Below, one piece after another: positions 444 to 41,977 of a stretch of DNA of 64,000 nt; positions within the stretch are counted from its first letter, which is position 1; the number at the start of each line of letters is the position of its first letter. The position numbers were made by a program, and so were the translations under genes. Source of the DNA: Buxus sempervirens. Lineage: Eukaryota; Streptophyta; Magnoliopsida; Buxales; Buxaceae. Location: assembly GCA_947561395.2 (NCBI GenBank), contig OX387183.1, positions 27,888,853 to 27,952,852 of the forward strand. The letters are read 5' to 3'. Under the pieces are notes generated by a model. That model was not told the DNA's origin and ran no database searches. It saw only the letters and a list, made by a program, of their open reading frames with translations.

Positions 444-1476
444 TGAAAGAGTAGAGGACTACTCTTAAGGTCCACGATCTATAACAATTCAGAATTTAAC
501 AATTGCGGAAACAGTACACAAAGAATTATACGAGGAAACCTGGATCCAGATCCAGGAAAAACCTCGAGTCTATATGAGGCGACTAACCCTTCAAAATCCA
601 CTATTGAATGAGAAGACAATTACAAAGGAGAACATACTTAACCTTTACAATTTGACTCACTCAACAGCAATCCACAGTTCGAATCCACGAACTGCTATAC
701 AGCTTGAATCCACAAGCTGCAGAACACGATCAGTCCAGATCGCAAACAATCACTCTCCAGTGATCCACAGTTCGAATCCACGAACTGCAACACAGCTTGA
801 ATCCACAAGCTGCAGGACACGATCAATCCAGATCGCAGCAATCCTCTCAGAATCCACTGAGACGATCCAATGCAGTAGGAATCCACCTACGCATCAATCA
901 AGGTCGATCACCAGTCCAGGCGATCACACGATCGGATGAAGTTCTGAATTGAAGAAGAATCCTCTACCTTCAATTCCAGGTGATCTATCTCAGATCTCCC
1001 CCTCACTCAATCGCCGACTCTCTAAAGACGATTTGATCGAATCTCAAATCTCTCAAGATCCGAATTCAAAATGATCCAAAGGAAAAGTCACAATTAAAAA
1101 TTACAACTCGTCTATTTAAAGAATAAAACACAAATCGCGTCGAGCGCTGGTAGCGTCGTGAAGCGATCGAAGTAGACGGCTGGTAGCGAACTCATGTCCC
1201 GCTCAGAGTGAGTTGAATCTGTTAGACGCGCGCTGCTAGCGAGCTGCTAGCGGGAGAGTACGCGGCAGGTGCACGATCCTTGCTTTTGACACACGAAATT
1301 CCTTATGCGCTGCCAGCGGGGGTGGCAGCGGCGTGGTAGCAGTGTGGTGGCACCAACTCTTCTTCTTTACTGAATTTACTGAATTTCATTGTTTAATCTG
1401 CACACCTTGAAGCTTTATTAGAAACCTAATTTGTCAATCATTTGCCATAACAGGAGTGTGAGTTTTCACACTTACA
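444..1476 (-). mobile_element. Copia LTR shared by two internal regions
   Basis: A 1033-bp LTR in minus orientation; on the plus strand it runs from TGAAAGAG to CTTACA. Its left side abuts a primer-binding site and gag, so it is a 5' LTR for that element. Its right side abuts a polypurine tract and 3' internal sequence, so it is a 3' LTR for the next. One LTR between two internal regions is the pattern left by recombination between LTRs of neighbouring copies or sister chromatids. It contains the hairpin array at 675-890 and a GC-rich block at about 1130-1345 with repeated GCTGGTAGCG-like words. Its age cannot be judged because only one LTR is visible. Confidence 0.8.
675..890. repeat. Array of hairpins with constant AATCCA loop and changing stems
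   Basis: Eight inverted repeats. Arms CAGTTCG/CGAACTG at 675-694 and again at 768-787; CAGCTTG/CAAGCTG at 700-719 and 793-812; CGATC/GATCG at 727-742 and 820-835; TCTCAG/CTGAGA at 845-862; GTAGG/CCTAC at 875-890. The loop is AATCCA in seven and AGTCCA in one. Units 1-3 and 4-6 are copies by a 93-bp tandem duplication, so there are five independent stem sequences around one loop. Confidence 0.9.
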
Positions 1477-1491
1477 ATCTCCCCCTTGGCA
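1477..1491 (-). other. Copia polypurine tract
   Basis: The minus strand reads TGCCAAGGGGGAGAT directly before the LTR start TGTAAG. This is the purine tract that primes plus-strand DNA synthesis. The other Copia in this window has a near-identical tract (CAAAGGGGGAGAT) before its 3' LTR at 20360. Confidence 0.85.
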
Positions 1492-1665
1492 AATGCCTGA
1501 CAACAACCGTACATCAGATTTTAAAATCAACCTTAGTTAATGATGATATCCATTCAAGAAATTTAAAACTACACTGTTAACCAGAGACACAGTGATTTGG
1601 ATTAATCCAGAGTTTCATTCATTTACAACCAGATATACAGATAACAAAATCATTTACATTGTTCA

Positions 1666-1745
1666 AGAAAGACAGACAGCAAGAAAGAAGGACAGACAGA
1701 CATTAAGAAAGAAAGACAGACATTAAGAAAGAAAGACAGACATTA
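1666..1745. repeat. AAGAAAGACAGACA-type simple repeat
   Basis: Imperfect short tandem repeat of AAGAAAG and GACAGACA words, with the phrase GACAGACATTAAGAAAG repeated. It lies in the untranslated 3' region of the Copia copy. Confidence 0.8.
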
Positions 1746-1961
1746 TCTCCCCCTTACTTATCATTCCCTTATACAAAAAAAATTCAGGAGACAACACCCA
1801 GAACAGACCATAACAAAACAACCATCATATCCACAACAAGAATAACATCACCAAACATCAAGCAAACAACAGAATTCGAAACATCAGCAGCAGCAAGCAG
1901 CAAACACCAAGCATCAGCGCAAGCATCAGCACCCACCCAGCCAAACCATCAATCAGAACCA

Positions 1962-2309: not shown

Positions 2310-2310
2310 G

Positions 2311-4498
2311 GGAAGGGAGGTCCAGCACTTTCATCTCAAGGAGGAGCCTCCACCCTACCCGAGAGCTTACGGAACCTCAGGTATTGTTCCCCGCCTACTT
2401 TTACTTAACATGTATCAAGATGGGAGTTATCTAAGAATGTTATCGGATTAGTTCTTTCTCCTTACTGTAACATGCGTGTTCTTATATTTTTGGTAACACG
2501 GAGGTCTCCGAGGGTAAGGGAGACCCCATGAGAAGATGGGAAGCTTGGCCATCCCACCTTAGGCCACCAAGGCCACTGTTCGGAGAGTTCTTTTGTGGAT
2601 CATTCAGTAAAGGGGAGTCTGTTCCATCGCTTCAAGCATGTCCCATGTACCCGTGTAAACCCCCCCGCCCCCTCTCTCTTTCCTTTCCCTGGAGGTTTAG
2701 TGACGCGAATATGGAGGTCTGGTCCAGGCGTAAGGGCAAGTCTGGTTTCTTGGTTACGTATGCAATCTCCGTTTTTTATTGTTTTTTTATTTTTTGCTAG
2801 ACTTGCCAACATGCTCCCCTAACCCCCTGCCACCTACTGTTTTCTTGTTGTGCGCTTGTTAGCATGCTTCCTTCACCCCCATTACCCCCTGTAGCTGTTA
2901 GTCTGTAGTTGTTTCTATATAATGGTCGGCTTGGTTCTTTGGTAAAGAGATTTGGAGTTGTGCCATGAAATAGATTAGATTAATTTCAGAGCATGTTTAA
3001 AGGTCTTCTAGGAGTCTGAGGAACACCGGGGGAGGTGTTACAGAGCTCGAAAACCCAGCCAGTCATGCAGTTTTCCAAAAAAACAGAGACAGAGGGGTGT
3101 TTAGCGAGCTCGCGCGAGGCTCGCGCTCAGCGCTTTTCACACTCGGTTCACACCTTGCTCGCGCCCGGCGCGCGGGTGCCCCTTTTTTGTTGATTTCCGG
3201 TTCCGCTCGGCTCACGCTGACCTCGCGCCTAGCGCCTAAGGTCAGCACACCCTCTTAATGAGCCAATCTCCCTTGATAAGTGTCAGTGTTTTGTATTTTC
3301 TTTGTGATGTATATTCTATGATTTTTACTGGATATGAGTGGCATTTTCAAACCGAACCGAATGAACCAATAGCGTTTCCGGGCCAACATGGGACTTAGAC
3401 CCCCTGTCCAATTTGAGTTCCAGTGGGCCTTCCAACGGGGCCCACCAAGCCCAATAAACATAATGGAATGCATGCATGTGACTTAATCAAGATAAATAAA
3501 TTAACTAATCAATCGGGGTGGGCCAAACCCAATGCGGCCCACCCGAACGGTTTCCGGGCCAACATGGGACTTAGACCCCCTGTCCAATTTGAGTTCCAGT
3601 GGGCCTTCCAACGGGGCCCACCAAGCCCAATAAACATAATGGAATGCATGCATGTGACTTAATCAAGATAAATAAATTAACTAATCAATCGGGGTGGGCC
3701 AAACCCAATGCGGCCCACCCGAACTTGTTGATGAATTGAAGTATGAAATGTGTGGTTTGGCCGAGACCAAGGGCAAGGGCCTATCGGCCCACCAAAGCCC
3801 ACCAACCGAACCAAGGCAAGGTGCAAACCCTAACTTCATGTAACTTGGGCCTTCAAGCCCAAATCAGGACTACGGGCCCCAAGCCCAATGTCAAACCCAT
3901 CTTCTGGCGAACTTAATAAGATAAATCTAAAGCACTTTTGGCAACCATCATGGGGGCCCATCCAGGGACCCGCAAACCAATGCGGGCCCACCTTTTGCAT
4001 GGAAATCACTTGAGCTTCAAATCTAAACCTTAATAAAAAATCAATTCACCTAACCTAAAGCCCAAAGGGCCTCCTAGGCTAGACAGAGGCCCACAAGGGT
4101 ACATGGGCTTGACTAGGCCCACCAAGGACACCGTGGGCCTTCCAACGGGGCCCATCCAACCAGACTCAGATTACCTAATTAATCAAGATAAAAGCAATTA
4201 AAGGGACCTACACCATTCAGGTGGTCCCACCAGACTTAACCGAGTTACATGAAGGATTAGGAATCGGGTGAGAAAAAGTGAGCTGACTCAAATGATAAAC
4301 CTAAGGGACCCGTCACCCGACGGAATGGACCGAGGTGTCTACGGACTTCCCCAGACCACAATCGAGACCCTACTTAGAATCTCAAAGCCGCAGACCAGAG
4401 CCTTAATATACAAGATTAGGCACCCAAGTGTCCGCCTGTACCCCATTAGGCCGTGGTGACTCCGAATTTTCCCGTGCTGAGTTCCCAACGCACGCACA
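2311..4498 (+). mobile_element. Tat-type Ty3 LTR, plus strand, lacking its 5' part
   Basis: Similar in order and sequence to the complete plus-strand LTR at 24619-27420. Shared landmarks are the CTCAGGTAT segment (2372 against about 25567), a GC-rich block of GCGAGCTCGCGCGAGG type (3098-3235), GGGCCTTCCAACGGGGCCC words, GTGTCTACGGACTTCCCC, and the final segment with GGTGACTCC followed by GCACGCACA. About 900 bp of the 5' end is absent. The edge at 4498 is set by the CA end. It adjoins Copia sequence on the left and a family L LTR on the right. Confidence 0.75.
3374..3725. repeat. 176-bp tandem duplication inside the LTR
   Basis: The block starting GTTTCCGGGCCAACATGGG at 3374 recurs at 3550 almost unchanged, down to GCGGCCCACCCGAAC. 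The two copies are nearly identical, so the duplication is recent relative to the LTR. Confidence 0.9.
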
Positions 4499-7929: not shown

Positions 7930-8316
7930 AAACCCCCAAGTATATCTAAAGTACACCTATGTATTACCCAATATATCCCCCAAGTATTCTTAAGGTACAC
8001 CCATTTATTTCCTAAAGTACACCTATATATTACCCAAGGTACACCCCCAATTATACCTAAGGTACCCCCTAATATACCTAAGGTACACTCCTTATCTTAC
8101 CTAAGGTACCCCATTATATAACTAAGGCACACCCCTTATATTAACTGAGGTACATCCCTTGTATTACCTGAAGGTACAACCCTCTTATAATTAAGGTACA
8201 CCCCTTCTATAACTAAGGTATCCCTTAGAATAACTAAGGTAAACTCCTTGAAACACCAAGGTACCCCCTCAAATAACACTAAGGTACCCCCTCATAACAC
8301 TAAGGTACCCCCTTGA
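7930..8316. repeat. Degenerate AAGGTAC(A/C)CCC tandem array
   Basis: About 15-20 loosely periodic units (roughly 20-30 bp) with the core AAGGTACNCCC. The array is interrupted by the solo LTR at 8317 and ends after it with a perfect inverted repeat at 10660-10683 (arms AACCCTTAGG/CCTAAGGGTT, loop TACC). Inside the array, arms CCTTAG/CTAAGG (8223-8239) and CCTTG/CAAGG (about 8246-8260) also pair. Confidence 0.75.
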
Positions 8317-10653
8317 TGTAACGCCCCGGATCCGAGTCACATGAAAAACTCGTAACTCGTATCCAGAGGTTATTATAATTAACAGGATCGCACTACCAGA
8401 GTAAAAAAAACATGAAACTAAATAATTCTATGCAATAGAGTGCGCTAAACAATCCCAAAGTAAAACTCACATGACCAAATTTCACTACCCGCAATTATCG
8501 GCTCTCCATACGTATCTGAAAAAAACAACAGAAATAAAAGAGTGAGATACGAATATCTCAGCGAGTATCACATGCATGCATAAATACACATCTGCAAATT
8601 TAAAACTTCTATGATCGAATAATCAGACGAGAAAACAAGGAATAACCGGTGAAGTCTGTGTACCCTTTTCTTTTATATTGTTGACCCCAGGGTATGGGAA
8701 ACCATCTAACTATAAGCAATTAACATCGGTAATGCCTTGGTCGACAAAACCCAGATCAGTTCCAGAAAGCATTATTGTTATAATCCATGCTTCAACAAGA
8801 CAAATTCCACTAAGTATCCTATGGTAATCCAACTGATAAGTAAACAACAAATCCACATGGTCAATGTCATACAAATATTTGATTGGGTAATCAACATGCC
8901 AGAGCGACCTCCACACCTCCATGTACACAGTTCCAGCCTACTCAGGGTTTCGGATACTCTGAAATGACGGCCTACTCAGGGTTTCGTCATCCAATGCCGG
9001 CCTACTCAGGGTTTCGACATTGACAACCAGGCCTACTCAGGGTTTCTGGCTGCTCTACACCAGTCGTGGCAACACTCCATGGCCATGCCATTACTCCAAT
9101 AAAATAAAAGCATCACATTACTAAGCTTAGACATCTGGATCCAGGACAAGCTAGACCAAAACAGTAAAACATCGTATAATCACAATTCCAATATCAAGGT
9201 AAAACTATTCATTCCACATCATGTAAAACCCATCACAGTTCATCACTTGTCCCTCTGGACCAAGCAGTATCTCAAGTACTTTCAGCATTTTCTCATTTTC
9301 GTAACACATGCCATTCGGAAACAAAACTCAATTCATTCATACCAAGGAAATCCTTACAATACATTTAAAGTTTCCAAACAAGTGAAACCAGAATAGAATC
9401 CTCAATCAAAACAATGTATAAAACAGAGTGAATGTAACTAGTAACTCTTAGTGGTTTGGCATCCGGCACAACACTCATAAATAACCTAAATCCAACTTGG
9501 AAGCTTTTAAGAAGTTAACTAAATTTTCCTCTAATATTTTCATAGGCAAATTAGATCTCAAAGTTCCCAAACAAGTGAATAGTGAAGTGGTTTAACCCTT
9601 AAAACACCCAATTACTCTTGGCTAAATCAGATTTCCATTTCAGTAAGTATAATAGGGTAGGCACTCACTTCCTGAAGTGGGCGTCGGGTGAACGTCGGTC
9701 GGCGGTAAGAAAAATAGGGTAAAAGGTAGCTTCCGCCCACTCGACGCTAAGTGAGCGCGAGATAGGCGCGAGCTGAGCGCCAGGTTCGCGCGAGCTGAGC
9801 GGCAGGTTTTCGAGTGCACGCGAGCTGAGCGTCGGGTTCGCGCGAGCTCGGCGGTAAGTCAAATTTAACGGGGCGTCTAGCTAAGAGGTGAGCGCAAGTG
9901 GGCGCTAGGTTCGCGGATACCCCCTGCGATTTTCAGTTCTCTGTAAATTCGAGATCTATATCTCTGGCTGGTTTGTTTCAGTCTGTTATTGCTCCAATAC
10001 CCTCCTAGTACTCCCAGAAGACTTCCCAACCATATTTGGATTTAATCTAAACACTTTTAATTTCAAGATAAAATTCAATCTCCGACTCTGTTTCATGTCA
10101 TTCCAGAAAACCAGAAGAACACCAGAAAACTCATACATCACTTAAAATACAAACCATGCATAAGAATAAGCTCACGAAAACATCAAACACAAAACCCAGT
10201 TGTAAATCAGTGCTACTCACCTTAGTATCGAAGACCTTCTTCAACTTCCGGCCATCCTAGGGATTTGACTGCGAGACCTAACCCGCCGGACTGCCGCCCT
10301 AACTTTCTCCCGAGCAGCAATTTTTCCCAAATCCCCGAAAACTTATAGGAGCTTCCTATTTATAGACATCGCAAATATTTGACCTAATTTCCCTTTTTAT
10401 TCCTCGAACCCCTGTTCTACCCTTTATTAGTATAGGGTTTTCCCCGGATCTTAACTATTTACCCAATTTTTATTTATTTCCGGGTCCGAATGTAACCTAT
10501 TTATAGTTCCGCTTAAATTTCTTTAACACTAATGAACCACAAATTTCCTAGCAATAAATTCTTTCTTTTTATTTATTTATTTATTTTGACTTTTAATTTA
10601 TTTTATTCTATTATTTTTATTATTATTATTTTTCTCAAAACTGGGGTTTTACA
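8317..10653 (-). mobile_element. Solo LTR of family L, minus strand, TSD CTTGA
   Basis: Plus strand runs TGTAACGCCCCGGATCC to GGGGTTTTACA, flanked by CTTGA at 8312-8316 and 10654-10658. A complete 2337-bp LTR with perfect target duplications and no internal region is a solo LTR. TATA-like TATAAATAGG on the minus strand at 10364-10355. GC-rich block with repeated GCGCGAGCTGAGCG at 9680-9930; hairpin array at 8929-9049. Confidence 0.92.
8929..9049. repeat. Hairpin array with constant CCTACTCAGGGTTT core
   Basis: Four copies of the core GCCTACTCAGGGTTT, each flanked by arms complementary to each other but different between units: AGTTCC/GGATACT with one bulge (8929-8957), ATGAC/GTCAT (8964-8990), CAATGCCG/CGACATTG with one mismatch (8992-9022), CCAG/CTGG (9027-9049). 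Confidence 0.85.
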
Positions 10654-10744: not shown

Positions 10745-11473
10745 GATGCTCTAGCTTAATGTTTTAAGTGTTTTTGAACACATCTTCTCGTGTTCTACAT
10801 ATATACTGAGAGAAAGAGAGTGTAACGCCCCGGATCCAGGTTTATTTAAGAATTATAAACCCAAACCCTGAACGTTAGAAAAGGCCCAGTATACTAGACC
10901 AGACATAAATAAATTCATGTTCATGATCAGAGTGCAACAATAATGACAAAATCCTCAAATAATTGTGGAATGAAAAGTACTATCATCCAAAATAATAACC
11001 ATCAAAATTCAAGTCTGGTCAGGGTCAACTAAAAGTATAATCCCAATACATCCGACAAAATAGTAATTCAAATCAAATAAGAGTCATGGCTCCCTGAACC
11101 TACATAGGTAAATAAAAATCCTCCTCCTGATAATCAGAATAGCCCCCCTATGTATCTAACCCAGTTGCGTTCTCTCCCGGAGTATCTTAAAACAAATTCA
11201 ATAAAAATGATAATGTGAGAAACAACACCTTAGTAAGTATTCATGCAAAAATACAAATTTTTAACATTTCGAAATATGCAAGTGAGTAATCAAGCTAACC
11301 AAGATAGATACAAACACAGTGAAATATAAACTAATGCAAACATATGATTAGTCTTGCAATACTCATGAAATAGGAAACCAGAGATAGATCAATAGACTAT
11401 GCCAATATGTTACCTAACTGACTTATAAGCGGACCAGCCGATACCAGACAAGCTATTCAACGCTAGGCGGGAG

Positions 11474-11564
11474 TACTCAACCGATACCGGAGTAAGTTAG
11501 CATGTACAATCCAACCGGTACCGGAGTGGATAACGTAGCAATCGACCGATACCGAAGCGGTATC
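11474..11564. repeat. Hairpin array with ACCGATACCG core
   Basis: Copies of a core like ACCGATACCGG with differing complementary arms: TACTC/GAGTA (11474-11494), ATCCA/TGGAT (11509-11531), and GATACCG/CGGTATC around AAG (11548-11564). It lies 650-740 bp from the LTR edge at 10821, the same relative place as the 8929-9049 array in the sister LTR starting at 8317. Confidence 0.75.
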
Positions 11565-15469: not shown

Positions 15470-16328
15470 TGTTAAAGTATATTGGCATTTGATGACGTGG
15501 AAGCATTTGATGACATGGAATTTTTAAATCTGTATTTTTCTAGTTGTCATTATCTAGTTGTCATGGTTTGTTAATAGAGATTTGAATTAACTTTTATCTC
15601 CTAGAGATTTGATATGCATCTCTTAGAATCTTATCTTTTAGAATCTTATCTCTTAAAGATTTGATATGCATCCCTTAGGATTAACTTGAATTCTGATTTC
15701 TCAGATTTGACATGCATCTCTTAGAATCTGATATGCCTTATCTAATTAAGAGATTATCTTTCCAGATTGAAAATTTCGAATCTGGAAAAACAGTTAAGAG
15801 AATATCTTATCTGTTCCTTATCTCAGTTGTAACAAAGTTACAACAAGTTAACTGTTTTGTTGAGTGATGTTTCAGGTTATAAATACTGATGTGAGTTTGA
15901 CAGAAAACTCAACTCCTTGAGCATTAAACAAATTTATCAGAAGTATTTGAAGCTCATCATTCTTCGGGAGAAGAACTTGAAGCCTTTGGGAGAAGGCAAC
16001 TTATGATTGAAGGGAGTTCAATCATGGATGCATAAGTCGAGGGGGAGCCTTGCTGCACACAGAAGATTGAAGGGAGTTCAATCTTGTCTAAGTCGAGGGG
16101 AGCTCGCTGAACAACACACTGAAGAGTCTTCTACACATTGGCGACGAAAAAGAGGGAGTCTTTTGTATGTGTAAGTCCTCATTGGTGTATGTAAGATTTT
16201 GTTTAACTTTAGTGGATTGTTCATCATCTGGACGTGGTCCCGAGGATTAGGTTAATACCGAACCTCGTTAAAACATCTCCTGTGTTCATGTGTTACAATA
16301 AAGTAGTTTAACACTAACAGATCTAACA
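15470..16328 (+). repeat. Copia 5' LTR
   Basis: TGTTAAAGTATATTGG to CAGATCTAACA, 859 bp. Contains repeated TTGATATGCATC/CTTAGAATCT words and an inverted repeat with arms GTTGTAAC/GTTACAAC. Longer than its partner because of the local duplication around 16010-16110. Confidence 0.95.
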
Positions 16329-22820: not shown

Positions 22821-22965
22821 GTAGCCGACCTGACTGGTCGGCTACAAACAAAAATCAGTGTAGCTGACCTATTTGGTCGGCTACATACAGAAAACAGTGT
22901 AGCCGACCAGGAAGGTCGACTACACATAGGTGCTAGCTGATCCGACCTGTGCTGTCGAATCAGCT
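22821..22965. repeat. Three 10-5-10 hairpins at 39-bp spacing plus one 12-7-12 hairpin (old LTR)
   Basis: Arms GTAGCCGACC/GGTCGGCTAC at 22821-22845, GTAGCTGACC/GGTCGGCTAC at 22860-22884, GTAGCCGACC/GGTCGACTAC at 22899-22923. Starts are exactly 39 bp apart and the loops are 5 nt but differ. They are followed by arms AGCTGATCCGAC/GTCGAATCAGCT with a 7-nt loop at 22935-22965. Confidence 0.9.
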
Positions 22966-26366: not shown

Positions 26367-28505
26367 TTGGACCCAGCACAATGAGCCATTTGCTTTTCTG
26401 ACAGAGTGTCCATCTTGTGTTTTTTCTATGATTATTGCTAGATGTGAATGCCATTTCCGAACCGGATAAACCAATAGGGTTTCCGGGTCACCCGGAAACC
26501 CAACATGGGACTTGGACCCTTGGTCCAACTTGGTTTCCAGTGGGCCTTCCAACGGGGCCCACCAAGCCCGACCAATCCATTTTGCTTAACTAAGATAAAT
26601 AAAAGATTTGAGTGGGCCAAACCACTTGAGGCCCACCCAAGCCCTAATTGGGCCATGCATGATTAAAGTAGCATGTGGTTTGGCCGAGACCACGGGCAGG
26701 GCCTATCGGGCCCACTAAGCCCATGAACCCAACCAACTTAGGGTTTCAGAACCCTAAACTTAGGAAATCTTGGGCTTTCAAGCCCAAGCCTGGGTAAAGG
26801 GCCCCAAGCCCAATACCTGGCCCATTTTGGTATAATTAATCAAGATAATCAAAATCACTTGGCAAACCACTGTGGGGCCCACTCAAGGGCCCACAAAGCA
26901 ATCCCGGCCCACTTTTGGCATGAAATCCACTTAACTAATCCAACTTGAACTCCAAAAGAAAATCAATTCAAATTGAACCAAAGTCCAAAGGGCCACACTC
27001 GGTCCACCAAGGGATACCGTGGGCCTTCCAACGGGGCCCACCCCACCAGGCCCATATCATCTTAATTAAAAAGATAAAATCAAGTAAAGGGACCCACACC
27101 ACTTTGGCGGTCCCGCCAAACTTAATCAAAATTGCATGATGGAATAGGAATCGGGTGAGGGAGAGACCAAAGTTGACTCAAACCAAGGAAACTTATGGGA
27201 CCCGTCACTTGACGGGGTGGACCGGGGTGTCTACGGACTTCCCCCGACCGCAACTGAGAACCTACTTAGAATCTCAAGCCGCAGACCAAGCCTTAGTAGA
27301 AGAACTTAGGCACCTAGGTGTCTGCCTGCACCCCATCAGGTAGTGGCGACTCCAAACTAATCCTGAGGCACGCATCGTTTCGCGTGCGCCTCGCCGTGCG
27401 ACCGAAATCGGGTGCGCACACCAACCATGGAGGTCGGATACACTATATGTCCTTTGTATCCAATATAAAATGTTGGATACAAACACAATTATTCCAAAAT
27501 TTTAATTCTGTCAGGGAATCCGTGGGAGGATCTAACAAGCAAATCTTTTGTATCCAAAAATATATTTCGGATATAAAGAAAAACATGTATATCCGACCAT
27601 ATATGTCGGATACAAAAAGGTGAATTTTTTATATTTACAAATTTACCCCTGGATTTGACCGATTTGACCAATTTGACACTTGAGATAATTGCAGATAGCC
27701 CCATGGATATTTACAGTTTAATCCCTGAGATATTTTTAGTATTTTGGATATTTACAGATTTGCCCCTGAGATTATCTTCTGCACTTTTGCCACGTAAGCA
27801 GTTTTCGACATTGCTGCCTTAGAACTTTAACTGCTCATATCTTCTTCATCCGGACTCCGATTCTGGCAAACTCAGTTGCGTTAGAGCCGTATCAGAGTCC
27901 TCTATTCATTGGGGTAGAGTTAAGCAGCTGATTTGGGGTTTAGCGAAAAGTCAATTTCTGCTCCCCTCAAGTTTGATCGGCCTGTAAATCCTTCATCCGG
28001 ACTCCGATTTCAGCAAACTCAGTTGCGTTGGAACCATGTCGGGATTCTCTATCCACTAAGATAAAGCAAGGTGGTCAATTATCATTTGATCAAAAAGTCA
28101 ACTTTCTCCCCTTAGGGTTTGACTTTCCAACTAGGATTTGCATTTCCGGCACTTCCGGAAGGCGCAAAAATGAGGTGCTTACAACGATTAGGCGTTCGGT
28201 TTATCTAAAACAGTCAACTCTCAAGTTTCAGAAACTAAAAAAAAGACACAGGCAGGGCGCCTCGAATGGCGCTCGAGCTGCGACGAGCATTCGCCCTTTA
28301 CAATTGGTGCCTGGTGTGACACTCGAGCGTCATCGCAGGCATTCGTTATATTTTCCAGTTTTTTAGAATTCACGAATTTTCTAGTTTCAGACTTGTTTTT
28401 TCCGAACTTTTAACATCTCAAATCACTTCTAAATCTTGGGTTTTCATCTTTAAAACACTCTAAACTATTCCAGATGATCAAATACATTAAACTACATATT
28501 TACAC

Positions 28506-29052: not shown

Positions 29053-30845
29053 TGTAGACACCACAAATTGCACTACAAAATGAGAAAATAATTGAAAATA
29101 TTAATTGGGATTTAAAACAGGTCAAAAAAGCATGAAATTCCATTATTTAAGCAATGCCCGTAATGTACCTACGGACTGGTTGCGCCCGAATTTTATATAC
29201 AGGCACGCAGCGCCCGTAATAATAATGTGGACACCACTTGCCCGTGATATATTTACGGGCGCAAGAGATTTGTACGAATTTGATCCTTGCTCGATTTTGG
29301 AGCCTTATCTTCACTCCAATATCTCCTTAGATAAGCGAATTATCTCTTTTAGTCGTTCGAATTATCCTTGTTGGTCATGGATGGGCATTATCCTTATTTT
29401 CAATCCAATTTGGTGGATCATGGTATATCCTTCTGGACCAGCCTTACCCCTGGGTTTGCCTATAAATAGAGGTGAGATCCTTAAGCAAGGGGCACGAAAA
29501 TTTGAAGTCTAAGGAGCTCCAAGTGAATAGAGGAATCCCTGCTGCTCTGCTTGCTCAATCCAGGTAAGTCCCTTTTCCCTTTTATTTTCTATCTTCAATT
29601 CTAGAAGTAATAGGATCTTCTCCATTGCTGTAGAATAAGGCCTCCTTTTATTTGTATTCCTAAACCTGCCTCCAAGTACCTCAAGAATCCTCTCTAGCCG
29701 TAAAAGGTGAAGAGAGAGCTAGGGGAAAGGGGAACAGGTGGATTCCTAGAATAGAACCCCATAATCTGTTTTTCTCCTTTTTTATAGAATAAGGCCTTTG
29801 ATTGTGTTTGTATACCCAAACCTATCTCTAAGTACCTCAAGAATCTTCTCTAGCCGTAAAACATGAAGAGAGAGCTAGGGTAAAAGAGAACAGGTGGATC
29901 TGTATGGTAGACTCCCATGTGCTCTAATCTGTGAGATACGGCTGCTTTGAATATCCTGTTCATGTTTTAATGGGTTTTACGTTAAATCTGAATGAATCAT
30001 ATGAATCCATGATGTTTATAGCACGAGATCCCCACTTTTTTCTATAATTTGGATTTTTCACATCTTTGCACCTACAGCACTGTTTTCGTGATTTTTGGGA
30101 TATTAGGCTAAGATCCTGGATCTATCATGATTTATATGATAGATCTAGATTCAGAAGCCTGAAAGTAACTTCTAGGGTTTCATGAAGTGGTTTTTGAGTC
30201 CTTTTTTATTTTTGAAAGAAGACCCTACGGTCTAAGTTCTCCCCTTTTAACGTGGGTATTTTTGGTTTTTATTTATTGATCTAATGTGAAATATGGTCTA
30301 TATCTATGTCCTGGACTATTCAAGTTCAATTCTATAATATTTTATAAAAATCATATTTTTCTAGATTTCTAGAATTTAACTTGAAGCCAGATTTTTTTAG
30401 TTTTCACTTTAGATTGGTTTTATTTGATTTTATCTTAATTTTATTTTAATCATGAAACCCTAGGAATGGTATGATCATATTTGAAAGTTCTGAATCAATC
30501 AGGCTATTCGTATGAAAAAACCATACACTTTTGTCTTTTTTGTGATTTTTCATGATTTTTGTAGCAAGCCCTTTTTCCTTTGAAAGACATGAACAATGCC
30601 TGGCAACCACCTTGTGTGGATGAATAGGGGTGCCTAACACCTTCCCCTATTCATAACTTAATCCCGTTATCCATCTCTGGTTGTTTTTTTAATAGGGTTA
30701 TTTTTACCCTAAATTTGCCTTTTTGTGCTTATTTGAGATTTTGGTGTCCATTCACACCTATACAGAATGGTGGCGACTCTTTGTTTTTAATCAATCCCGT
30801 GTGATGATTAGGAAGTCATTAAATTGATTTTTCTCATGTCTCACA
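29053..30845 (+). mobile_element. Solo LTR with internal PBS-like sequence, TSD ATGAG
   Basis: Starts TGTAGACACC and ends GTCTCACA, 1793 bp, flanked by ATGAG at 29048-29052 and 30846-30850. TATAAATAGA at 29461-29470. About 80 bp before its end it contains CTATACA, a short gap and TGGCGACTC, which looks like an LTR end plus a tRNA-Arg-type primer-binding site lying inside the LTR. Two related blocks near 29640-29720 and 29785-29880 (AGAATAAGGCC, CTCTAGCCGTAAAA, GAGAGAGCTAGGG) form an imperfect direct repeat. A Tat-like Ty3 origin is inferred from this end structure. Confidence 0.85.
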
Positions 30846-32754
30846 ATGAGGAGCTGTGCGGCTGTTTAAGCTTCTAATTTTTTTCTTTCTTTTTATATTT
30901 TTGTCCAACACTACTAATTAACCTTAATAACCTTCCTTTTTTACTTTCTTACCTTTCAAACCAATATACTAACTCTCAATAAATGTTGGTCTTGGTCGAC
31001 CTCACCCTTCTCTAGTGGGATTCGACCACTTTTATGAAGAATTTTAATTCTGTTATATTTCTTTTAAATAATAGTGTATGGTTATTTAAATAAAACTATC
31101 TATAAAAATTATTATTCTTATTATCTCGAAACTAAAATACTAACTCACCTTACATTTAATTCTCCAAGTTCTGGGTCACCTTACAGTTCTTCGGGTTGAA
31201 CCAATTCCTCATCCCCTGAATTATTAATAACATTTATTAATTTATTTATTTTGTCACAATTATTTTATTAATAAAATGTAGGATTTTACAAAGAGAGTGT
31301 AGAGGACTTGCAAGTTTGGTGAAGAAGAAGAAGGAGAAGGAGGAAGATTGAAGAGAAGTTGTGCTTCTCCATTAAACAAGTAGCAAACCCTTCCAACTAA
31401 AATGAGTTTACTAAATTTTCGTATTCCTCTCTCCTAGGTTTGGTTGAGCTGAAAATTAACTTGCATGTTGGTTTTTGCTTCTAAAATTTGTAGGGTTTTG
31501 GTTGTATAACACATCTGTTTGGTTTTTATTGATTTGTTATGGATTTCCAGCCTACATTGATTACATTTTAGTTTTGGGTTTGAGTTTGATATGTTGAATG
31601 AGGTCTCATGTGTTTAGATTTGTGTTCATATGTATTTGAGATGAACTTTTGTTGTAGAAGGTGTTTTGAAGTATGTTGGGATGTTTTATGATCATCCCAC
31701 TTAGTGTTGGGAAGGTTAGAAATGGTTTGTATGAGTTTGGTGCTGAAAAATAGCCAAAAAAGTTTCAAAACCCGAATTGGCGATTAATCCTGAGTTAGAA
31801 CACCCAAAAACAGTCACAGCGATTAATCATGGACCTAATTGCCAGGGGTGACTAATCGTGGGGGCTAATCATGAGCCTTGATTTTCCCAGTCCTTCACCC
31901 TTTGTTACACCTTTGATTTTCCAAACAACCTAAACCTCCTACACATCCCTTATTACATGAAAGACATTTAATGTCATGTGTATTTTATGTTTCCATTTAC
32001 TAAAGTCTTTACATGTAAATAAGGTTTTACCCCCATTCGAAACCACTAAAAATACGCCAAAGACCTAATTCCTTACCAATAAAATGTTAACTTTCTAGTT
32101 CATGCCTAAAACTCTTGCTTTGCCCGATTTTCATCAAAAACCACTTTTTGAGTTTGATACCCAAATGAAGTATTCAGAAGTCCATAAAATTACAAAAAAT
32201 TTGTTAACCTTTCATTAGACTACGATCAAAATTTGAGCTCAAAACTCCCGGTAGATTTGTCTACAACAATCATATACCTAAAAAGTCAATGTTTTTAACC
32301 AAACTTAGAATATTTTTCAAGGTCGAAAATTTTTTATTTCCGAATCCATTGATTTTTGGTATGGTGATTTTATTGGGAATTCTAAAACTATTCCACTCAT
32401 CAAATATGTATTTTGTAGATTTTATAACATTCGTTTTGTTTGATTTGGATCCATGAAAATGTGGTTGAGATCTCTTATGTAATTTGATAAGGCACTTAGC
32501 CTTGATTTGATTGGCAGTGAATTGGTAATCTCAATTAGTCTTGGTTGAATCGTAGTGGATGGGGAATTCCACTCGGCCCTGGATTGTATTTTGTGGACTT
32601 CATGGTGTATGTGTTTTACTTTGATTTGGCTTTGGATGTGAAGTGATTATTGATTTCTTTTACACATGTGAGTATTGATTTGATTTGATAAAGGTATGGT
32701 AAGCTCTCTTATGTGATTTAACCAGGCACCTGGCCTAGGGTTTGATTGGCAGTG

Positions 32755-32866
32755 AATGAGTAATCTCATTGGATAGTGAATGAGTAATCTCACTTAGTAG
32801 TGGATAAGTAGTCCCACTTGGCAGTGAATGAGTAATTTCATTTGGTAGTGATTGTGTAGTCTCACT
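32755..32866. repeat. GAGTAATCTCA-type hairpin minisatellite in D1
   Basis: Units of about 20-25 bp (GGCAGTGAATGAGTAATCTC type) with paired arms that change between units: AATGAG/CTCATT (32755-32770), AGTGA/TCACT (32775-32794), AGTGG/CCACT (32799-32818), AATGA/TCATT (32827-32842), AGTGA/TCACT (32847-32866). Confidence 0.75.
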
Positions 32867-33567
32867 TGGCAGTGAATGAGTAATCTCTCTTGGTTTGTAC
32901 ATTGAGGCATTGGTTCTAGTAAATGATACGAATGGTTTGTTTTGAATTATGAGTCCTACAAAGATATGCTTGTAGTAAATGATTGGGTTTATCGGACTAA
33001 TTCTATGTTTATCTGATTGAGATGCTCTGGCTTAAGATTATACCTTATATTTGAGAATATGACCATGATGTCATAAAAATTGCATAAACTGCTTCTATTC
33101 ATGAGTTCTGTATTTTATATCAGTGAATGTTATCATGATGTTATAAGAATTGCATAAACTGTTTCAATTCATGCATGTTTGTTATTTGCTAGGACTTTAA
33201 GTCTCATCGTGTTTTGTTTTATTGGATTTGTTTTCAAATCCGCTGTGTGAGCACAATATTGGGGTAAAGCCAGATGGAGAGCCTGTGTATAGACTTGAGG
33301 ACTACTAGTACCCATAATAGGGTTCTCCATGTGTTGCCAATTTTTGTTTTTTTTTTTAGAATTGTAAATGGGAATGTAATAACTCTCTTATGGATTATGA
33401 CCTTACTATGGGATTTACATATTAGAGAGATATTTTGAGCGCTTAGTTACCTTTTTGTTATGCACAAGTATCACCTCTTTGAAATTATTATATACGTGAC
33501 TTTTGTTAGATGGAAATTTTTATTCCATGCTTCTTATACTTATTTGCACTCTGATGATTAGAGTGTT

Positions 33568-33577
33568 TATAAAAAGG
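33568..33577 (+). promoter_or_regulatory. TATA-box-like site of copy B
   Basis: TATAAAAAGG on the plus strand, followed by a purine-rich leader (33640-33720) similar in character to that of D1 and, in reverse, of copy A. Confidence 0.5.
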
Positions 33578-34105: not shown

Positions 34106-36246
34106 CTGGATTCATCAAAAAGGCAAGTAGAAAACCCTTGAAACTAGAGATAATGCATGTTTTCTTGTGATTTAGATGTTTATTTGTGGTATTATTCGAG
34201 TTGGATTTCATTGGAAAAGATTGATGATTATAAAGTTTTGATTTGGTGATGTTAATCTCTATTTAAGAATTAAGAAAAGGGTTGCTCATGGGTGGTTTAA
34301 TTTAGAAAGAAATCTTAAATAAATTTTAATCACTAAGATTAGATTAGGATTGTCTTAGAAGTATTTTAGAATGAAATTTAGACGTTTTGAAACAATTTAA
34401 AAACAATAGAAATTTGAGAAGTTTCAGAAATTCTAAAAAACCCCAAAAACTGAGTTTTGGGTAGAGCGCCCGAAATACTGCTCGAGCACCTTGTTTGTAT
34501 ACTTTAAAACAAAACATGAAAATCAGTCGCCCGAATGCCCGCTGAAGCCCAACCATGGGCTACCTGCCTGTGTATTTAAAATAGAACCTGAAAACCTAGC
34601 GGCCAGGGCAGTCGCTCGAGTGCCTCTTTGACTGACCAATGTCAGAAATTTCAGATTTTGGGATTTGTGCCCAAATTTAATTTTTAATGATTTTTCTGTA
34701 AATTCTAAAGTTGTAACACCTGTAACTAGGTTAATTTGAGATGTAGGAAGTGGCGGAATTAAATTTGAATTAAAGAATAGTAATTTGAGACGATTATTGT
34801 AAATATGAAACTTTTGGAGATATTTTTAGTAGAAAGAGGTCTTAACCTATTTGGACCTGATTTTGGGTAGTTTTACCTATTCATAAACTTCACCACAGAC
34901 CTGAATTTACCTCTGGAAGGGTTAAATATCAAAGTTAATAAATTTTGACACCTTAGGTTCTTTAAAGGGTAAAACTTTGGGTATTCTTTAGCAAATGTCT
35001 AGAATAAAAATCAATTAGGGGATGAATTTTTGGGAATCATAAAATACTGATCTAGCAAATTATCTTACACTTTCCCGTGGGTAAATTAAGAGTGTTCATA
35101 TTATTAAATTACTATTTAGAAAACTAATGAGTGATTTGGGAATGTTTAACTATAATATTGTGTTTACAAGGCTTAGATTGTGTCTACTATTTATTTCCAA
35201 ATGTGATCCATTTCTTATCATTTGATGTTATATCTCTAGACATTTGCATATGGTTATATTAATGAATTGACAGAATTATTGAAGACCTCCGTGTACCTCA
35301 AGGATGCCCCATGTATCTTGGGATGAAGTATTGAAGACCTTCGTGTACCTCGGGGATGCCTCATGTATCTTAGGATGATATGATTTTGGTTAATTTTTCT
35401 CTCTCCTGTATCTTAAGATGAGCTGGTTATTGAGGATTTTAGAACTTATAGTATTATTAAGTTATTATGAGTTTTTGGTTGTGAGTTGTGTCTAGCAGGC
35501 TTAGCTCTTACATGGATCTATAGAGTAGCTAGTAAATGAAATTGTTTTCTGGAGTTCTTATTCTGTGTCATAGGCACTCCATTATCTCAAGGATGGTACC
35601 GCTCCTAGATAGGTCGGTCGCTATGTTACCCACTCTTGAATAGGTTGGGCCGTACATGCTAACCCATTTTGGTTCTTGGTTATTGGTTGTTTGTGGGTTC
35701 TTCCGTTGGCGTTGAATAGCCAGACTGCAGAGCGGCTGGTCCACTTGTAATTCAGTAAGGTAACATATTGGCACATGTCTATAGAACTTTGTTTACGATT
35801 CCATTAGTCCTGTGATGTCATAAGGTGGTATGCTGTTTGCCTTGATTTCTCTATATTATCGTTTTTCTTGTTGATGTTGTTGGTTTAATCGTACACCTCA
35901 TGACTTATTTTATATAAACATGGACTGATTTCATGCATGCACCTTGCTAATTGTTGAGATTTATTCTCACTTCGGTTTCTCCCATTTTTCAGGAATTCTT
36001 GGAGAGGACGACAGCATTGGGCTAGTATGTAAAGGGGTAGTCAGTTTAGTTGTAAATTAGTTTCCTGAGATTAAGAACATTGTAATTGTTAAAGTTTATT
36101 TGTTATTGGATATTATTTCTTGTTTCTGCATAAACTCTAATGATGAAATTAATGAAGGTTTAAATTGATTCAAAATTTTTAGTTGTTTTCGTTACTTACC
36201 ATAACACCTTGGATTTTGGGAAATGGATCCGAAACCGAGGGCGATA

Positions 36247-38146
36247 CAGGATATATTGGACCTAATTTTGGATGATAGAAATAAGTTTTAGAAAAATAGA
36301 TATGAAATTCGGAATTCTGTCAAATATTGAGATTTGGTGAATTTACACGAGCGCTAGACACACCGCTTGAGCGCCCATGTTGAGCACTAGTTATATTTTG
36401 CTTAGTTTCTAGACCGCTAGATAGGCTGCTTGAGCAATCTGTTGAACGCCCATTGAACAAGTTAATTTGTGAGACTGCTTGACACCAAGGGTGAACAATC
36501 TGTTGAGCGCCAACCCAGTTTTCTTATTTTTGGGAAATTAATCTATATTTTGATTATAAAATGATTTTTAGACAAATCCAAAACATGTACAAATAAGATT
36601 TGGGTGTTTAGAAATTGTTTTTGGAAGCCAAATAATTTTATAAAAATTATACAAGATTTTGGGTACGTTCTACTAAAATAGGTCATGTTTGGGTTCCAAG
36701 AGGAAATTTGATCTCAAACTTGATTTTTGTTTGTGAATTGATTGGCTTCTACACTTGTAAAAGTATGTTTTAAAGATGTTTAAAGCTCTAGAACAATAAG
36801 AAAATGTTTTCTACAAATTCTGGGTAGATTGAGCATATTTCATAAATTTTGACAGTTTTGTGTAATATTGGTTTTCCTCCATGAGGAAGGGTATTTCTCT
36901 TATTCTTGAAGATACCTCAACTAGATGATGGCACGTGAGCTATTATCGGCCATGTTGTAAGTCAATTAATGGCGAATACATGAGTCATTATTGGTCGTGT
37001 CTTTAGCCAATTATTGACATTGATACTAACCATGAGGCCCATGTTTATTGATATTTTGCCATGAGAGGCAGTAAGCATAAATTTATTTCCATGAGGAAAT
37101 GTTTTGCCAAGAGGGCATTATTGACTTATATTTTACCATTAGGGCTATGAATCATGAATTCTTTTCCATGAGGGCATTACGCTTATATTTTGATCATGAG
37201 GACTCATGTTTTGATTTGAATTGTGTCTTGACGGGTATAGCTTGTTATAGATCCATATTTTAGCTAGTAGTGAAGTCTGTCTATCTTTGTTTGGATTAAG
37301 TCTAGTTCCTTTATGAATTTCCTCTATGATGGAGAGGCCTTCCATGAGGGATGAACTGTAACAACTCCACTTTCACCGTGAGGATGAGGTCTACTATATT
37401 TCTACTATGAGGGTGATGATAAGGACAGATATGTTGCAGTTTATTCTTAGACTGGATTATTGAGACTAGGTCTTGACCTTTCAAAATGGTCATATTTCAC
37501 GAGTCCTGTGATGTTACAATTATTTGGTTTGGATTGATTCTCATGAAGAGATTGACTGTATGGTTTGGATTTGATTTGTTTTGGAAAATATTCATTAAAT
37601 GATTATTGTTTATGGATTTTGATTAGCCGGATTTATTGTTGAATTCTTACACCTCATGAAAAGTATTTTGATAGCAATATGTGGACTGTTTTTATTCATG
37701 CATGTTGCTATTACTAAGATTTTATTTTTCACCCCATGTTTTTAATGTTTTGTTTTCAGATATGCTTTGAGAGAACGAACAGTGGGGATTCTTGAGGGTA
37801 TAGTTGATTGGTTTAGAATAATGCCCTGTGACTTGTGAAATTACTATTTTTGTATAATTATTGGTTATTTGTTTAGGTTGACTTTTAGTTCAAATTGAAG
37901 GATTGCCATTATGATAGTGAGTTGAGATTTGTAGTTGAATTTTCATATTCAAATTAATGTATATACAATTGAGAGTTATTTTGAAGTCTTTTGCTGTTAT
38001 TGAAATATTAGAAAGTTGTTTAAAATTTGGTATACTCCGATATGAATTCATTGTAAATTCTAGATTTTTATTTTGTTTCGAGCCATATAGATAATACTTT
38101 GGGTTTAGATTATTTATGAGGAATATATGCAGATCCGGAGTGCTAC
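36247..38146 (+). mobile_element. Family L LTR piece (copy C), plus strand
   Basis: Ends AGATCCGGAGTGCTACA at 38146, another variant of the family end. Layout is as in copies A, B and D1: a CGAGCGC block (36350-36520), then a minisatellite with CCATGAGG cores (36890-37460), then an AT-rich tail. The 5' part with the TATA box is missing. No coding content. Confidence 0.55.
37057..37117. repeat. CATGAGG-core hairpins in copy C
   Basis: Arms TGCC/GGCA around ATGAGA (37057-37070), ATTTCC/GGAAAT around ATGA (37085-37100), TGCC/GGCA around AAGAG (37105-37117). Further CCATGAGG words without good arms continue to about 37460. Confidence 0.6.
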
Positions 38147-38623: not shown

Positions 38624-39673
38624 TGCGCGCGTGGGAAACGCGGCACGGGGGTAATTCGGAGTCGCCACCGCCTGATGGGGTGCAGGCGGACACCTGGGTG
38701 CCTAATCTTGTCTATTAAGGCTTGGGTCTGCGGCTTTTGAGATTCTAAGTCGGGATCTCGGTTGCGGTCTGGGGAAGTCCGTAGACACCCCAGTCCACCC
38801 CGTCGGTTGACGGGTCCCGTGGGTTCCCTGGTTTGAGTCAGCTCTCTTGCTTGGTTCTCACCCGATTCCTAATCCAGCAGGTATTTAAGTTAGGCCTTGG
38901 CGGGACCACCTGATTGGTGTGAGTCCCTTTAGTTGATTTTATCTTTGCTTAACTTAAATTGTCTGAGTCTGATTGGGTGGGCCCCGTTGGAGGGCCCACG
39001 GTGTCCTTGGCGGGCTTGGGTAAGCCCATGTGCCCATGTGGGCCTCTGTCTAAGCCTAGGAGGCCCTGTGGGCTTTGGTTAAGTGTGTTGGTTTTATTTA
39101 GTTTGTTCAAGTTGGATACTTAAGTGATTTCCATGCAAGAAGCCAGCCGGCATTGATTTGCGGGCCCCTGGGTGGGCCCCCATGTTGGTTGCCAAAGTGT
39201 CTTTAATTTATCTTATTTAAATTCATCCAGGTGGGTTGGATGTTGGGCTTGGGGCCCGTAGTCCAGATTTTAGGCTTGAAAGCCCATTGCTTCGAAGTTG
39301 GGGTTTGCACCCTTCCTTGGTTCGGTTAGCGGGCTTTGGTGGGCCCGACAGGCCCTAGCCCGTGGTCTCGGCCAAACCATGCAATTCATATGTCCATTAC
39401 ACATTACAGGGCACGGGTGGGCCGCATTGGGTTTGGCCCGCCCGGTTCAAATGGCTCATTTTACTTAAGTTGTTTAATTAGCATGCTTTGGGGTTCATTG
39501 GGCTTGGTGGGCCCCGTTGGAAGGCCCACGGGTATTCCGAGTTGGACCGGCGGTCCATGTTCCAAGTTGGGTTTCCGGGTGACCCGGAAACCCTGTTGGT
39601 TCAGTGGTTTTTTGGTTCAAATCGCTCCAAATTTCGGCAAGGCATCAAAACATGCAAAAAACCACAATTCTGG

Positions 39674-39742
39674 GTGTATCCGGCCTTAGTGGCCGGATAC
39701 ACATGGGCCCTAGGTGATCCGGCCTGAGTTGCCGGATCACCT
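39674..39742. repeat. Two hairpins in the LTR, homologous to the old LTR array
   Basis: Arms GTGTATCCGGCC/GGCCGGATACAC with a 5-nt loop (39674-39702) and AGGTGATCCGGC/GCCGGATCACCT with a 7-nt loop (39712-39742). These are the counterparts of the hairpins at 22821-22845 and 22935-22965. The same pair is at 59431-59459 and 59469-59499 in the right LTR. Confidence 0.9.
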
Positions 39743-41730
39743 CAAAATTGCCTTTTGCGGGCTTTGGCCATTGGGGTGGCTTCCAGGGGTTTCCTAAGGC
39801 CTTTCTAAGGTTTGGTGGGCCCCTGGGAGGGCCCACACTAGCTCAGGTTTGGGGGAGAAGCCTCATTTGGCTTTTCTTTTTGTGTCTCTTAGCTAGGCAA
39901 GGGAGCTAGCCATGGTGCATGGGCCTGCCACTCCACTTCTTTCCAGCAACGGGTAACAACGAGGTAGGGGTCTTAGCACCCCCCACCTAGGTATTTTAAA
40001 GTCACTAACTACATGTCCAAGCGGTAAACCACATCTGAACTTCATGCCTAACTATTCTAACATATACATACATGCTTTACATTGATAAGGTAGCAACAAT
40101 GAAGTGGGGACAGCAACTAGAAAAGACTAAGCATGCTACTGGAATGTACATGGAGATTAACCTAATACAGGCACCTAGAGCAGCAGCTCTCAAGGGAAAT
40201 TAAACATGCCAAAAGGGAGGTGGGAGCCTCATGAAAAGTAGGAGGGAGAGACCTTCATGCATAGCTGTGATGGTCTAGTGCAAGGGAGGATCCTAGGCTG
40301 CCTAAGCCTGCAGGGACAGCAACAAACAATGAGGGCTTGCTGCTGTCTCCAGCAGCAGCCCTCTTGGACCATGCTAAGGGGGCTATGGGGTAATGGGAGG
40401 CATGCTTGGACACTAAAAAAAACAGCAAATTACTAAAGGCAAAAGGGGGGCATACCAATCAGTGGCATGCTTCATTTTAGTTAAAAAACAACTGCTGTGC
40501 ATGGGGATAAAAGGGGACTGTTGGTGGTTAGTAAGCATGCTGGACAGCATGTTACTGCAGGGAATTGGAGTCATTCGAATGATCTAAAAACAGCAGGTGG
40601 TAAAGGGGCTCGGGGGAGCATGCATGTTGGCACCATATGACAACAAAACAAGGGGAACATGGGGGAAAGGAAATACTGTTGATAATAATAAAAAAATCAG
40701 TAGCATGTTAAGGATTGTGGGGGGTAAAGGAGCATGCCTACATGTGCGAGAACAGCAGGTTACAAGTGGTACGGCCAGTGGCAATATACCAAAGAAATCA
40801 GTAAAAAAAAATGAAAAAAAGAGAAGGAACAAGAAGGGAAATGGGTGGAGGGGCTGCTGCTGTTCCCAGCAGCAGCTCACTTGGACACTCAATGGGGGGT
40901 CACCAGGTGAGGGGGGGCATGCTTACTAACCATTAAAGCCACAACACGCATACGGCAAGCAACCAAGGAGGTACAACCAGCCAAATACCCACAAAAAGTA
41001 GTGAAATTGGAGCTAAAGCATGACAAACAGAAAATCAAACTTTAGAAAGGAAATGGGGGGTCACTTAGGGGTACATGGGATGAAGTAGGAGAGAAACAAG
41101 TGCCTCTAATAGTTGCTGGAAATAAAGCACAAAACAGCAACATATTAAGATTGAAAGTGTGCCAAAATGAAGCCCTCATGCTTGCATGGAACCACACATG
41201 GATCTCTCACCTTTGGTGGTTTCATGCCATGGAGAGAAACGTCAAATGCATGCATAATAAGACAAGGAAATGACCCCATGCCAAGAAAGAAAATTAGATG
41301 CATGCTTAATATGACAAGGAAATCATCCCATGCCAAGAAGAGAGACAAGAGTAAGCAAGTTAGAGAAAAAAAATCCAGATTTAATATATGAGGAACTCCA
41401 CATGATATGGAACCTTACCTGGAGGTTCTAGGCTCTTTAGTGGAGGTGGAGACACTCCCTTGAGGATGGACAGCAGCTGGTAAGTCCTCCCACAGCAGCA
41501 GCAGCAAGCAACCTCTCCTCCTTGGCACTTGGTGGGTGAGAGATGAGGAGGAAGGAGGAGGAGAAGGGGTGGGGCTGCCTTGGGGTGGTGGTGGGAAGGT
41601 GGTGGAGCCAAAGGGGTGCTGGGGAGGGAGGATTCGGGTGAGTAATAGAGGGGCAAGGAGGTCTACAAGCAATGAAACCAACCAACCATTGGAAAGGGGG
41701 CTGCTGTCCCCTTTTATAAAAAAACTTAAT

Positions 41731-41977
41731 GTATCCGGACTTGGAGTCCGGATACACTATATATCATGTGTATCCGGACTTGGAGTCCGGATACACTAAG
41801 CTTCCTTTGTATCCGGACTTGGAGTCCGGATACAAAACATAATAATTGGCAAAATTGAATTCCGCCGCGAATTTGTCGGAGAATCGACGCGAATCTCGCC
41901 GAGCAAATCTTCGTATCCGGCCTTGGAGTCCGGATATACATACGGGTATGTGTATCCGGTATATTTGACCGGATACA
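41731..41977. repeat. 10-5-10 hairpins at 39-bp spacing (young LTR)
   Basis: Three identical units, arms GTATCCGGAC/GTCCGGATAC with loop TTGGA, start at 41731, 41770 and 41809. A diverged unit lies at 41913-41937, and one with arms TGTATCCGGT/ACCGGATACA at 41951-41977. Just upstream of the TATA-like site on the element strand. Repeated at 61488-61734 in the right LTR. Confidence 0.92.

Follow-up and report, generated by a model that had tools for sequence, protein, structure and literature searches.

Arrays of hairpins with a kept loop and changing stems in the probable leaders of Copia retrotransposons of Buxus sempervirens, and their possible role in multivalent protein binding

Long terminal repeat (LTR) retrotransposons in a 64-kb stretch of Buxus sempervirens DNA (the window, to which all positions refer) carry arrays of short inverted repeats, and the question raised by this locus is what keeps the two arms of each repeat able to pair while their letters change. 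A preliminary description of the same stretch had claimed one design, a short kept core between arms that vary among units and still remain reverse complements, in seven places: a Copia LTR (675-890), four arrays of a family termed L (8929-9049, 11474-11564, 32755-32866 and 37057-37117; here arrays A, B, D and C, respectively), and an old and a young Tat LTR (22821-22965 and 41731-41977). We found that paired arm changes around a kept core exceed controls in the Copia LTR (here Copia-1), in A pooled with B and with a homologue of B that was not on that list (array E), and in the leader of a second, equally unlisted Copia element (Copia-2). A single design at all seven places is not supported, since array C is at chance level, D has near-constant arms, and the arms of the Tat arrays are mostly constant. 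We assign a probability of about 0.5 to the reading that the arrays of Copia-1, Copia-2 and family L are hairpins of the leader RNA which present a kept loop for multivalent binding by a protein, with Gag as the favoured partner.

The sense strand of Copia-1 is the minus strand, because its primer-binding site (PBS) lies on that strand, next to a frame identified as a Copia gag. Its features are as follows; in the hairpin lines the stem is given by one arm.

444-1476, minus strand: Copia-1 LTR, the only one of this element in the window; 3' end set by the PBS, 5' end (TG) presumptive
430-441, minus strand: PBS TGGTATCAGAGC, 0 mismatches
within 3-392, minus strand: gag (Pfam PF14223)
1113-1120, minus strand: TATA-like box TTTAAATA from a pattern scan, offset 355 from 1474; presumed promoter
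906-925, minus strand: hairpin, stem GATCGCC with one internal G.U, loop TGGACT (918-913)
873-892, minus strand: hairpin, stem GTAGG, loop TGGATT; the predicted fold has a bulge before the outer pairs
844-863, minus strand: hairpin, stem TCTCAG, loop TGGATT
818-837, minus strand: hairpin, stem CGATC, loop TGGATT
793-812, minus strand: hairpin, stem CAGCTTG, loop TGGATT
768-787, minus strand: hairpin, stem CAGTTCG, loop TGGATT
747-766, minus strand: hairpin, stem ATCAC with loop TGGAGA, or equally stem ATCACT with tetraloop GGAG
675-744, minus strand: three hairpins (loops 737-732, 712-707 and 687-682), tandem copies of those at 830-775

Since a TATA-like box stands at 1113-1120, the array lies in the probable leader, with transcription expected to start downstream of that box. 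The AATCCA core of the preliminary description, read on the sense strand, is a hexaloop UGGAUU. Searching the minus strand of 500-1085 for TGG[AG]NT or TGGAGA returned 13 sites; nine close stems of at least five contiguous Watson-Crick pairs, a tenth (loop 918-913) has seven pairs including one internal G.U, and three are not hairpins. The array proposed at 675-890 thus holds up and is widened to 675-925, with loops spaced 21-33 nt apart. A structure-first search of 446-1085 (stems of at least 5, loops of 3-8) found 14 hairpins, nine of them array units, and the predicted RNA fold of the sense leader is a row of UGGAYU-loop hairpins (z -6.1). No protein match was found to the plus-strand frame over the array.

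That the arms of Copia-1 change in pairs is indicated by several comparisons. None of 300,000 arm permutations of all 13 units paired as well as the real arrangement, and 14 of 1,000,000 did so when repeated arms were collapsed (10 units, the three non-hairpins kept). A covariation check among the units of the array, of the kind proposed with the original claim for many genomic copies, gave an excess here (0.932 vs 0.261 for shuffled and at most 0.176 for slid alignments; 13 rows, 11 of them distinct) and also in array A, below. Among the seven distinct units the inner stems are 0.26 identical and the outer flanks 0.27, with loops 0.87 identical, the last figure being partly circular because the units were chosen by loop word. 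The three hairpins at 675-744 are copies because a block of ∼93 bp has been tandemly duplicated (657-757 and 750-848, 89% identical); within the duplicate these three have kept every stem base, and a fourth no longer folds.

The Copia-2 array was picked up at 16010-16152 by a scan of hairpins for common loops. The element lies on the plus strand:

15470-16328, plus strand: Copia-2 5' LTR (TGTTA...TAACA), which pairs with 20360-21163 at 92%
15878-15885, plus strand: TATA-like box TATAAATA, from a pattern scan
15960-16164, plus strand: leader array with seven GGGAG sites (15966, 15988, 16012, 16043, 16072, 16098 and 16154)
16331, plus strand: PBS-like site TGGTATCGGAGC, 1 mismatch
plus strand: Copia-2 gag (Pfam PF14223)
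17286-17327, plus strand: CCHC zinc-knuckle motif CRECEGFGHIQSEC in the translated Copia-2 Gag frame; no Pfam match
20850-20999, plus strand: copy of the array in the 3' LTR, with five GGGAG sites; 55 bp with two units are missing

Both Copia arrays therefore occupy the same place, between a TATA-like box and the PBS. Five of the seven GGGAG sites of the 5' leader close stems of at least four contiguous Watson-Crick pairs around a GGGA or GGGAG loop, and in the remaining two the pairing includes one U.G or G.U. Five of the seven hairpins that a structure-first search returned from this leader bear the array loop. The six distinct units have stems that are 0.20 identical and loops that are 1.00 identical, with the same circularity as for Copia-1. 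When arms were permuted in free register, 4 of 5,040 arrangements did as well at four pairs and 2 of 5,040 at five pairs when wobble was allowed, counts that were the same whether or not swapped arms could choose their register. Two stem substitutions separate the two LTRs. One changes U.G to C-G. The second lies where the deletion joins and changes C-G to U.G, giving a 6-nt loop, and the unit concerned fails the strict test for 4- or 5-nt loops.

How far Copia-1 and Copia-2 count as unrelated, as the preliminary description had said of its families, depends on the part compared: a self-comparison of the window (E 1e-5, minimum 60 bases) matched nothing between their LTRs, but the two gags share 51% identity over 129 residues.

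In both leaders the loop word is bound to a stem, and elsewhere in the window it almost never is. TGGAYT closes a stem of at least four pairs at 8 of 11 sites in the Copia-1 leader, against 1 of 95 elsewhere; GGGAG sits in strict stems of at least four pairs at 9 of 12 sites over the two Copia-2 LTR leaders, against 0 of 133 elsewhere, or 11 of 12 against 2 of 133 with one wobble permitted. A scan of both strands for distinct stems on one loop word likewise ranked the Copia-1 leader (seven stems) and the Copia-2 leader (five) first, and 20 shuffled windows yielded six clusters between them, none above four stems. Array A falls outside the loop sizes of that scan.

Family L shows a related arrangement, in which the loop sits on a short inner stem. 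The presumptive Ty3 label of this family is the assignment of the preliminary description. The arrays and their surroundings are:

8317-10653, minus strand: solo LTR A, with target-site duplication (TSD) CTTGA
about 10358-10365 and 10499-10506, minus strand: TATA-like boxes of LTR A, from a pattern scan
8930-9052, minus strand: array A, four hairpins with a variable outer stem and a constant AAACCCTGAGTAGGC (inner stem CCT/AGG, loop GAGT)
11475-11562, minus strand: array B, three hairpins with inner stem CCG/CGG or TCG/CGG and loop GTAT/GTAC
35597-35650, plus strand: array E, two hairpins with inner stem CCT/AGG or CTT/AGG; homologue of B in a further family L copy
32516-32890, plus strand: array D, seven units of AGTGA-ATGAGTAATC-TCACT with near-constant arms

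The two minus-strand TATA-like boxes suggest that the minus strand is the sense strand of LTR A. Array A would then lie downstream of such boxes, as do the arrays of Copia-1 and Copia-2, and all three are thus probably in leader RNA. On this strand array A folds into four clean units, and its antisense is less regular. Of its cells 94% are paired, and its covariation (0.574 vs 0.212 shuffled) was reached by 1 of 500 shuffles, in agreement with the original claim for 8929-9049. Solo LTR A was inserted into a degenerate tandem array of ∼23-bp units (CTAAGGTACCCCC-like) at 7935-8322, the insertion site marked by the TSD. Array B is hosted by a related family L LTR that starts at 10821 (plus strand), and its distance to the LTR end is about the same as that of A.

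With three units, array B alone is too small to be informative (1 of 6 permutations), and the claim made for it gains support when it is pooled with E, whose homology to B was established by self-comparison. Between B and E, one outer-stem pair changes from U-A to C-G, and inner-stem pairs change from G-C to U-A twice. In the pool of A, B and E, 40 of 45 outer positions pair, a value reached by 24 of 500,000 arm shuffles, or by 1,759 of 500,000 when shuffling was confined within each array; these pairs were counted by script because MAFFT misplaced a gap in unit A4. Array D did not bear out the claim: its seven units show a single paired change, and 71,173 of 500,000 permutations did as well, which is not significant. 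Array C is no better than chance, CATGAG being found in stems of at least four pairs at 2 of 8 sites inside the array against 3 of 52 elsewhere in the window.

We reasoned that a kept loop on stems that merely have to pair is the trace that a loop-reading partner would leave, and for this reason such a partner is proposed. In the favoured explanation, the arrays would act as RNA elements in the transcribed LTR leader (R-U5), each made up of short hairpins in a row (in the Copias mostly at a spacing of 21-33 nt) and displaying one loop: UGGAYU in Copia-1, GGGAG in Copia-2, and in family L a GNRU-like tetraloop on an inner hairpin of 3 bp. Selection would act on the loop letters and on pairing itself rather than on the stem letters, such that stems drift in compensated pairs, and units may be gained and lost through tandem duplication and deletion. 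The loops would bind a protein multivalently, possibly Gag through its CCHC knuckle, and such binding would serve selective packaging or particle assembly. A wider form of this idea is tentative and, in our judgement, doubtful: that two superfamilies of plant LTR retrotransposons (Copia, and Ty3 if the family L label is right) separately reached a periodic leader array with a lineage-specific fixed loop and free stems, which would amount to a multivalent packaging code co-evolving with each Gag.

Gag is the first candidate because the nucleocapsid (NC) of HIV-1 reads exposed guanosines and because the packaging-signal model uses stem-loops with a shared motif. In the part of PMC7599994 that bears on this, the HIV-1 NC knuckles are described as binding the exposed guanosines of the GGAG and GGUG loops. 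The likeness of our Copia arrays to the hairpins SL2 and SL3 (loops GGUG and GGAG, respectively) described there lies in the leader position, which for the Copias is the probable one given above, in the presence of several short hairpins, and in exposed guanosines, which the predicted UGGAYU and GGGAG apical loops have and which family L loops match less well. GGGAG of Copia-2 contains GGAG, one unit of Copia-1 can fold with GGAG as its tetraloop, and the Copia-2 Gag frame has the CCHC motif that Pfam did not flag (the corresponding part of Copia-1 falls outside the window). The difference from the system in that account is that the Copia leaders repeat one loop 7 to 10 times on stems unrelated in sequence, and that they belong to Copia elements rather than to a retrovirus. 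Dispersed packaging signals of the MS2 type in single-stranded RNA genomes, as outlined in the section of PMC6281560 drawn on here, also consist of many stem-loops with a common short motif in varying sequences; those signals are scattered along the genome and associated with icosahedral capsids, whereas the Copia arrays are tight and lie in the LTR leader. The Ty1 leader, with its dimerisation and packaging structures (PMC5454406, in the portion consulted), offers leader RNA structure in a Copia-type element; the model in that portion uses kissing loops, and the loops here are not mutually complementary. Kissing of like loops was rejected, the complements of TGGATT, TGGACT and GGGAG being absent from their own leaders.

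Several observations weigh against our preferred explanation. All seven Copia-1 stem positions change on both sides, but 131 of 500 shuffles reach that count; the Copia-2 leader folds only mildly beyond shuffles (z -1.9 and -2.3); and the loop identities of both leaders carry the circularity noted above. Loops of family L are not G-rich, and B and E each have one A.C on the presumed sense strand. Other real clusters of four stems exist at 26622-26816, at 30136-30448 (minus) and in the D region; the first two have the loop words TTGG and AAAT and, given six clusters in 20 shuffled windows, may be due to chance. Everything was found in a single genome. The analogies have difficulties of their own, in that packaging changed little when the GGAG loop of HIV-1 was replaced, according to the relevant part of PMC7599994, and that proposed packaging signals of STNV-1 are described as having no discernible role in vivo in the part of PMC6475782 cited here. 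Finally, the choice of RNA over DNA as the selected form draws mainly on position. The leader of Copia-1 folds equally far beyond shuffles in antisense (z -7.0). The first mismatch past the Copia-1 stems is G.U in seven of nine cases, where composition predicts 0.26 (P 0.002), and in four of six with arms collapsed (P 0.04), but when G.U is set against A.C only, the difference is not significant (7:0, P 0.14; collapsed 4:0, P 0.32); as evidence for selection at the RNA level, wobble therefore exceeds composition and fails in the narrower comparison.

The preliminary description had named two possible causes, selection on the fold and rewriting of one arm from the other. Under the latter, tandem duplication and template switching in reverse transcription (quasipalindrome correction) would make perfect hairpins that have no use, and some of what we see fits this: units duplicate and drop out, as in the duplicated block of Copia-1 and the 55-bp loss between the Copia-2 LTRs, and perfect inverted repeats whose arms measure 6 or more are in excess in the window (341 vs 183-202 in six shuffles; mirror repeats number 244). 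Such a process, however, ties no loop word to a stem. Between distinct units the stems are only 0.20-0.26 identical, and in the Copia-1 duplicate three hairpins have unchanged stems, although the fourth has lost its fold. Because the loop words are stem-bound at 8 of 11 and 9 of 12 leader sites, compared with 1 of 95 and 0 of 133 sites elsewhere, we favour selection on the fold and regard a purely mutational origin as unlikely. The same structural evidence, together with a position upstream of gag, would suit leader arrays that act on translation by slowing scanning, or that recruit a host RNA-binding protein to GGA-type loops; but a plain block to scanning needs no constant loop and nothing in our data points to a host protein, and we hold this to be unlikely.

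Selection could also act on DNA, the repeats being cruciforms or LTR binding sites with a conserved centre that serve transcription or silencing, like the palindromes of Sireviruses. Most stems are Watson-Crick and can hence form on either strand, the Copia-1 leader folds beyond its shuffles in sense and antisense alike, and an excess of small RNAs at the palindrome clusters of maize Sireviruses is mentioned in the part of PMC10760457 used here (citing Bousios 2016). Against this, in Copia-1, Copia-2 and A the array is placed downstream of the TATA-like box, where the published boxes are not, and no dimer could read the arms because these have no common sequence; a DNA-level function is in our view quite unlikely. 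That we have over-read chance or ordinary minisatellites fits array C and, largely, D. It is very hard to reconcile with Copia-1, Copia-2 and the pooled A, B and E, which beat permutation and shuffle controls, and we consider it extremely improbable for the whole. In an ordinary minisatellite the whole unit is copied, stems included, which we observed only in the Copia-1 block at 657-848.

The Sirevirus palindromes also bear on the statement that the design belongs to no named element type. Palindrome arrays in plant Copia LTRs are already known, and in the section of PMC2829016 that deals with the repeated-motif boxes (RMs) of Sireviruses, many symmetrical repeats in such LTRs are described, so that the statement does not fully hold. 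In the RMs described there, the arms are constant around a CGG-CCG core (the table of that paper shows one exception), and the boxes lie upstream of the TATA box. Copia leader arrays differ on the first count, their stems being 0.20-0.26 identical between units, and Copia-1, Copia-2 and A differ on the second, being downstream; as far as those published pages go, the constant-loop, variable-stem leader form departs from the known arrays. Copia-1 itself has five CGCTNSCAGC boxes in its U3 (∼1155-1318, minus), upstream of the TATA-like box, which resemble Sirevirus RM boxes and have a CpG observed/expected ratio of 1.15. One LTR therefore carries both constant-arm boxes upstream and constant-loop hairpins downstream.

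The Tat arrays are of the constant-arm kind, with these features:

41731-41977, minus strand: young Tat palindromes, constant arms GTATCCGG, one arm class
41712-41719, minus strand: TATA-like TTATAAAA; in the sense direction the young array ends just upstream of it
22821-22965, minus strand: old Tat palindromes, arms GTAGCCGACC mostly constant, loop variable
44798-53215, minus strand: long Tat frame, 2805 amino acids

Their hairpins are real, as had been proposed, but the constancy of most arms is the opposite of the claimed design. The young array is identical, over 311 nt, in the other LTR near 61488, and one old unit (∼22935-22965) has different arms that still pair. In build (constant arms) and in placement upstream of TATA, the young array is like the Sirevirus RM boxes as portrayed in the cited part of PMC2829016. 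Pfam matches from two tested pieces of the long frame place reverse transcriptase before integrase, the Ty3-type order, and Tat is therefore not a Sirevirus. Beside this frame, at 53932-55088, are eight copies of a 145-bp tandem unit, and old Tat-like LTR sequence at 3374-3724 contains two tandem copies of a 176-bp unit with a 100% match.

We also searched for relatives of these sequences. An Rfam scan of the window gave 0 matches at the gathering score, and a literature search, which left most subscription journals outside its reach, returned no description that we recognised of constant-loop, variable-stem leader arrays. A protein search with the gag found 346 relatives, and among the 120 matches listed those with an organism name are from plants; no relatives of the Copia gags were found in the viral contigs, genome contigs and plasmids searched. 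A 17-row alignment (15 of the 120 listed relatives and the two Copia gags from this window) was used as input for scans only. In PDB, the second piece of Gag had a single match (E 0.2).

To our knowledge, the choice of RNA for packaging by plant LTR retrotransposons has been little studied. One kept loop on freely changing stems names a candidate motif letter by letter, and the design of the arrays leads to a prediction, namely that mutation of the loop should matter and swapping of the stems should not. The arrays might in addition help to compare highly divergent LTR leaders, in which little else aligns.

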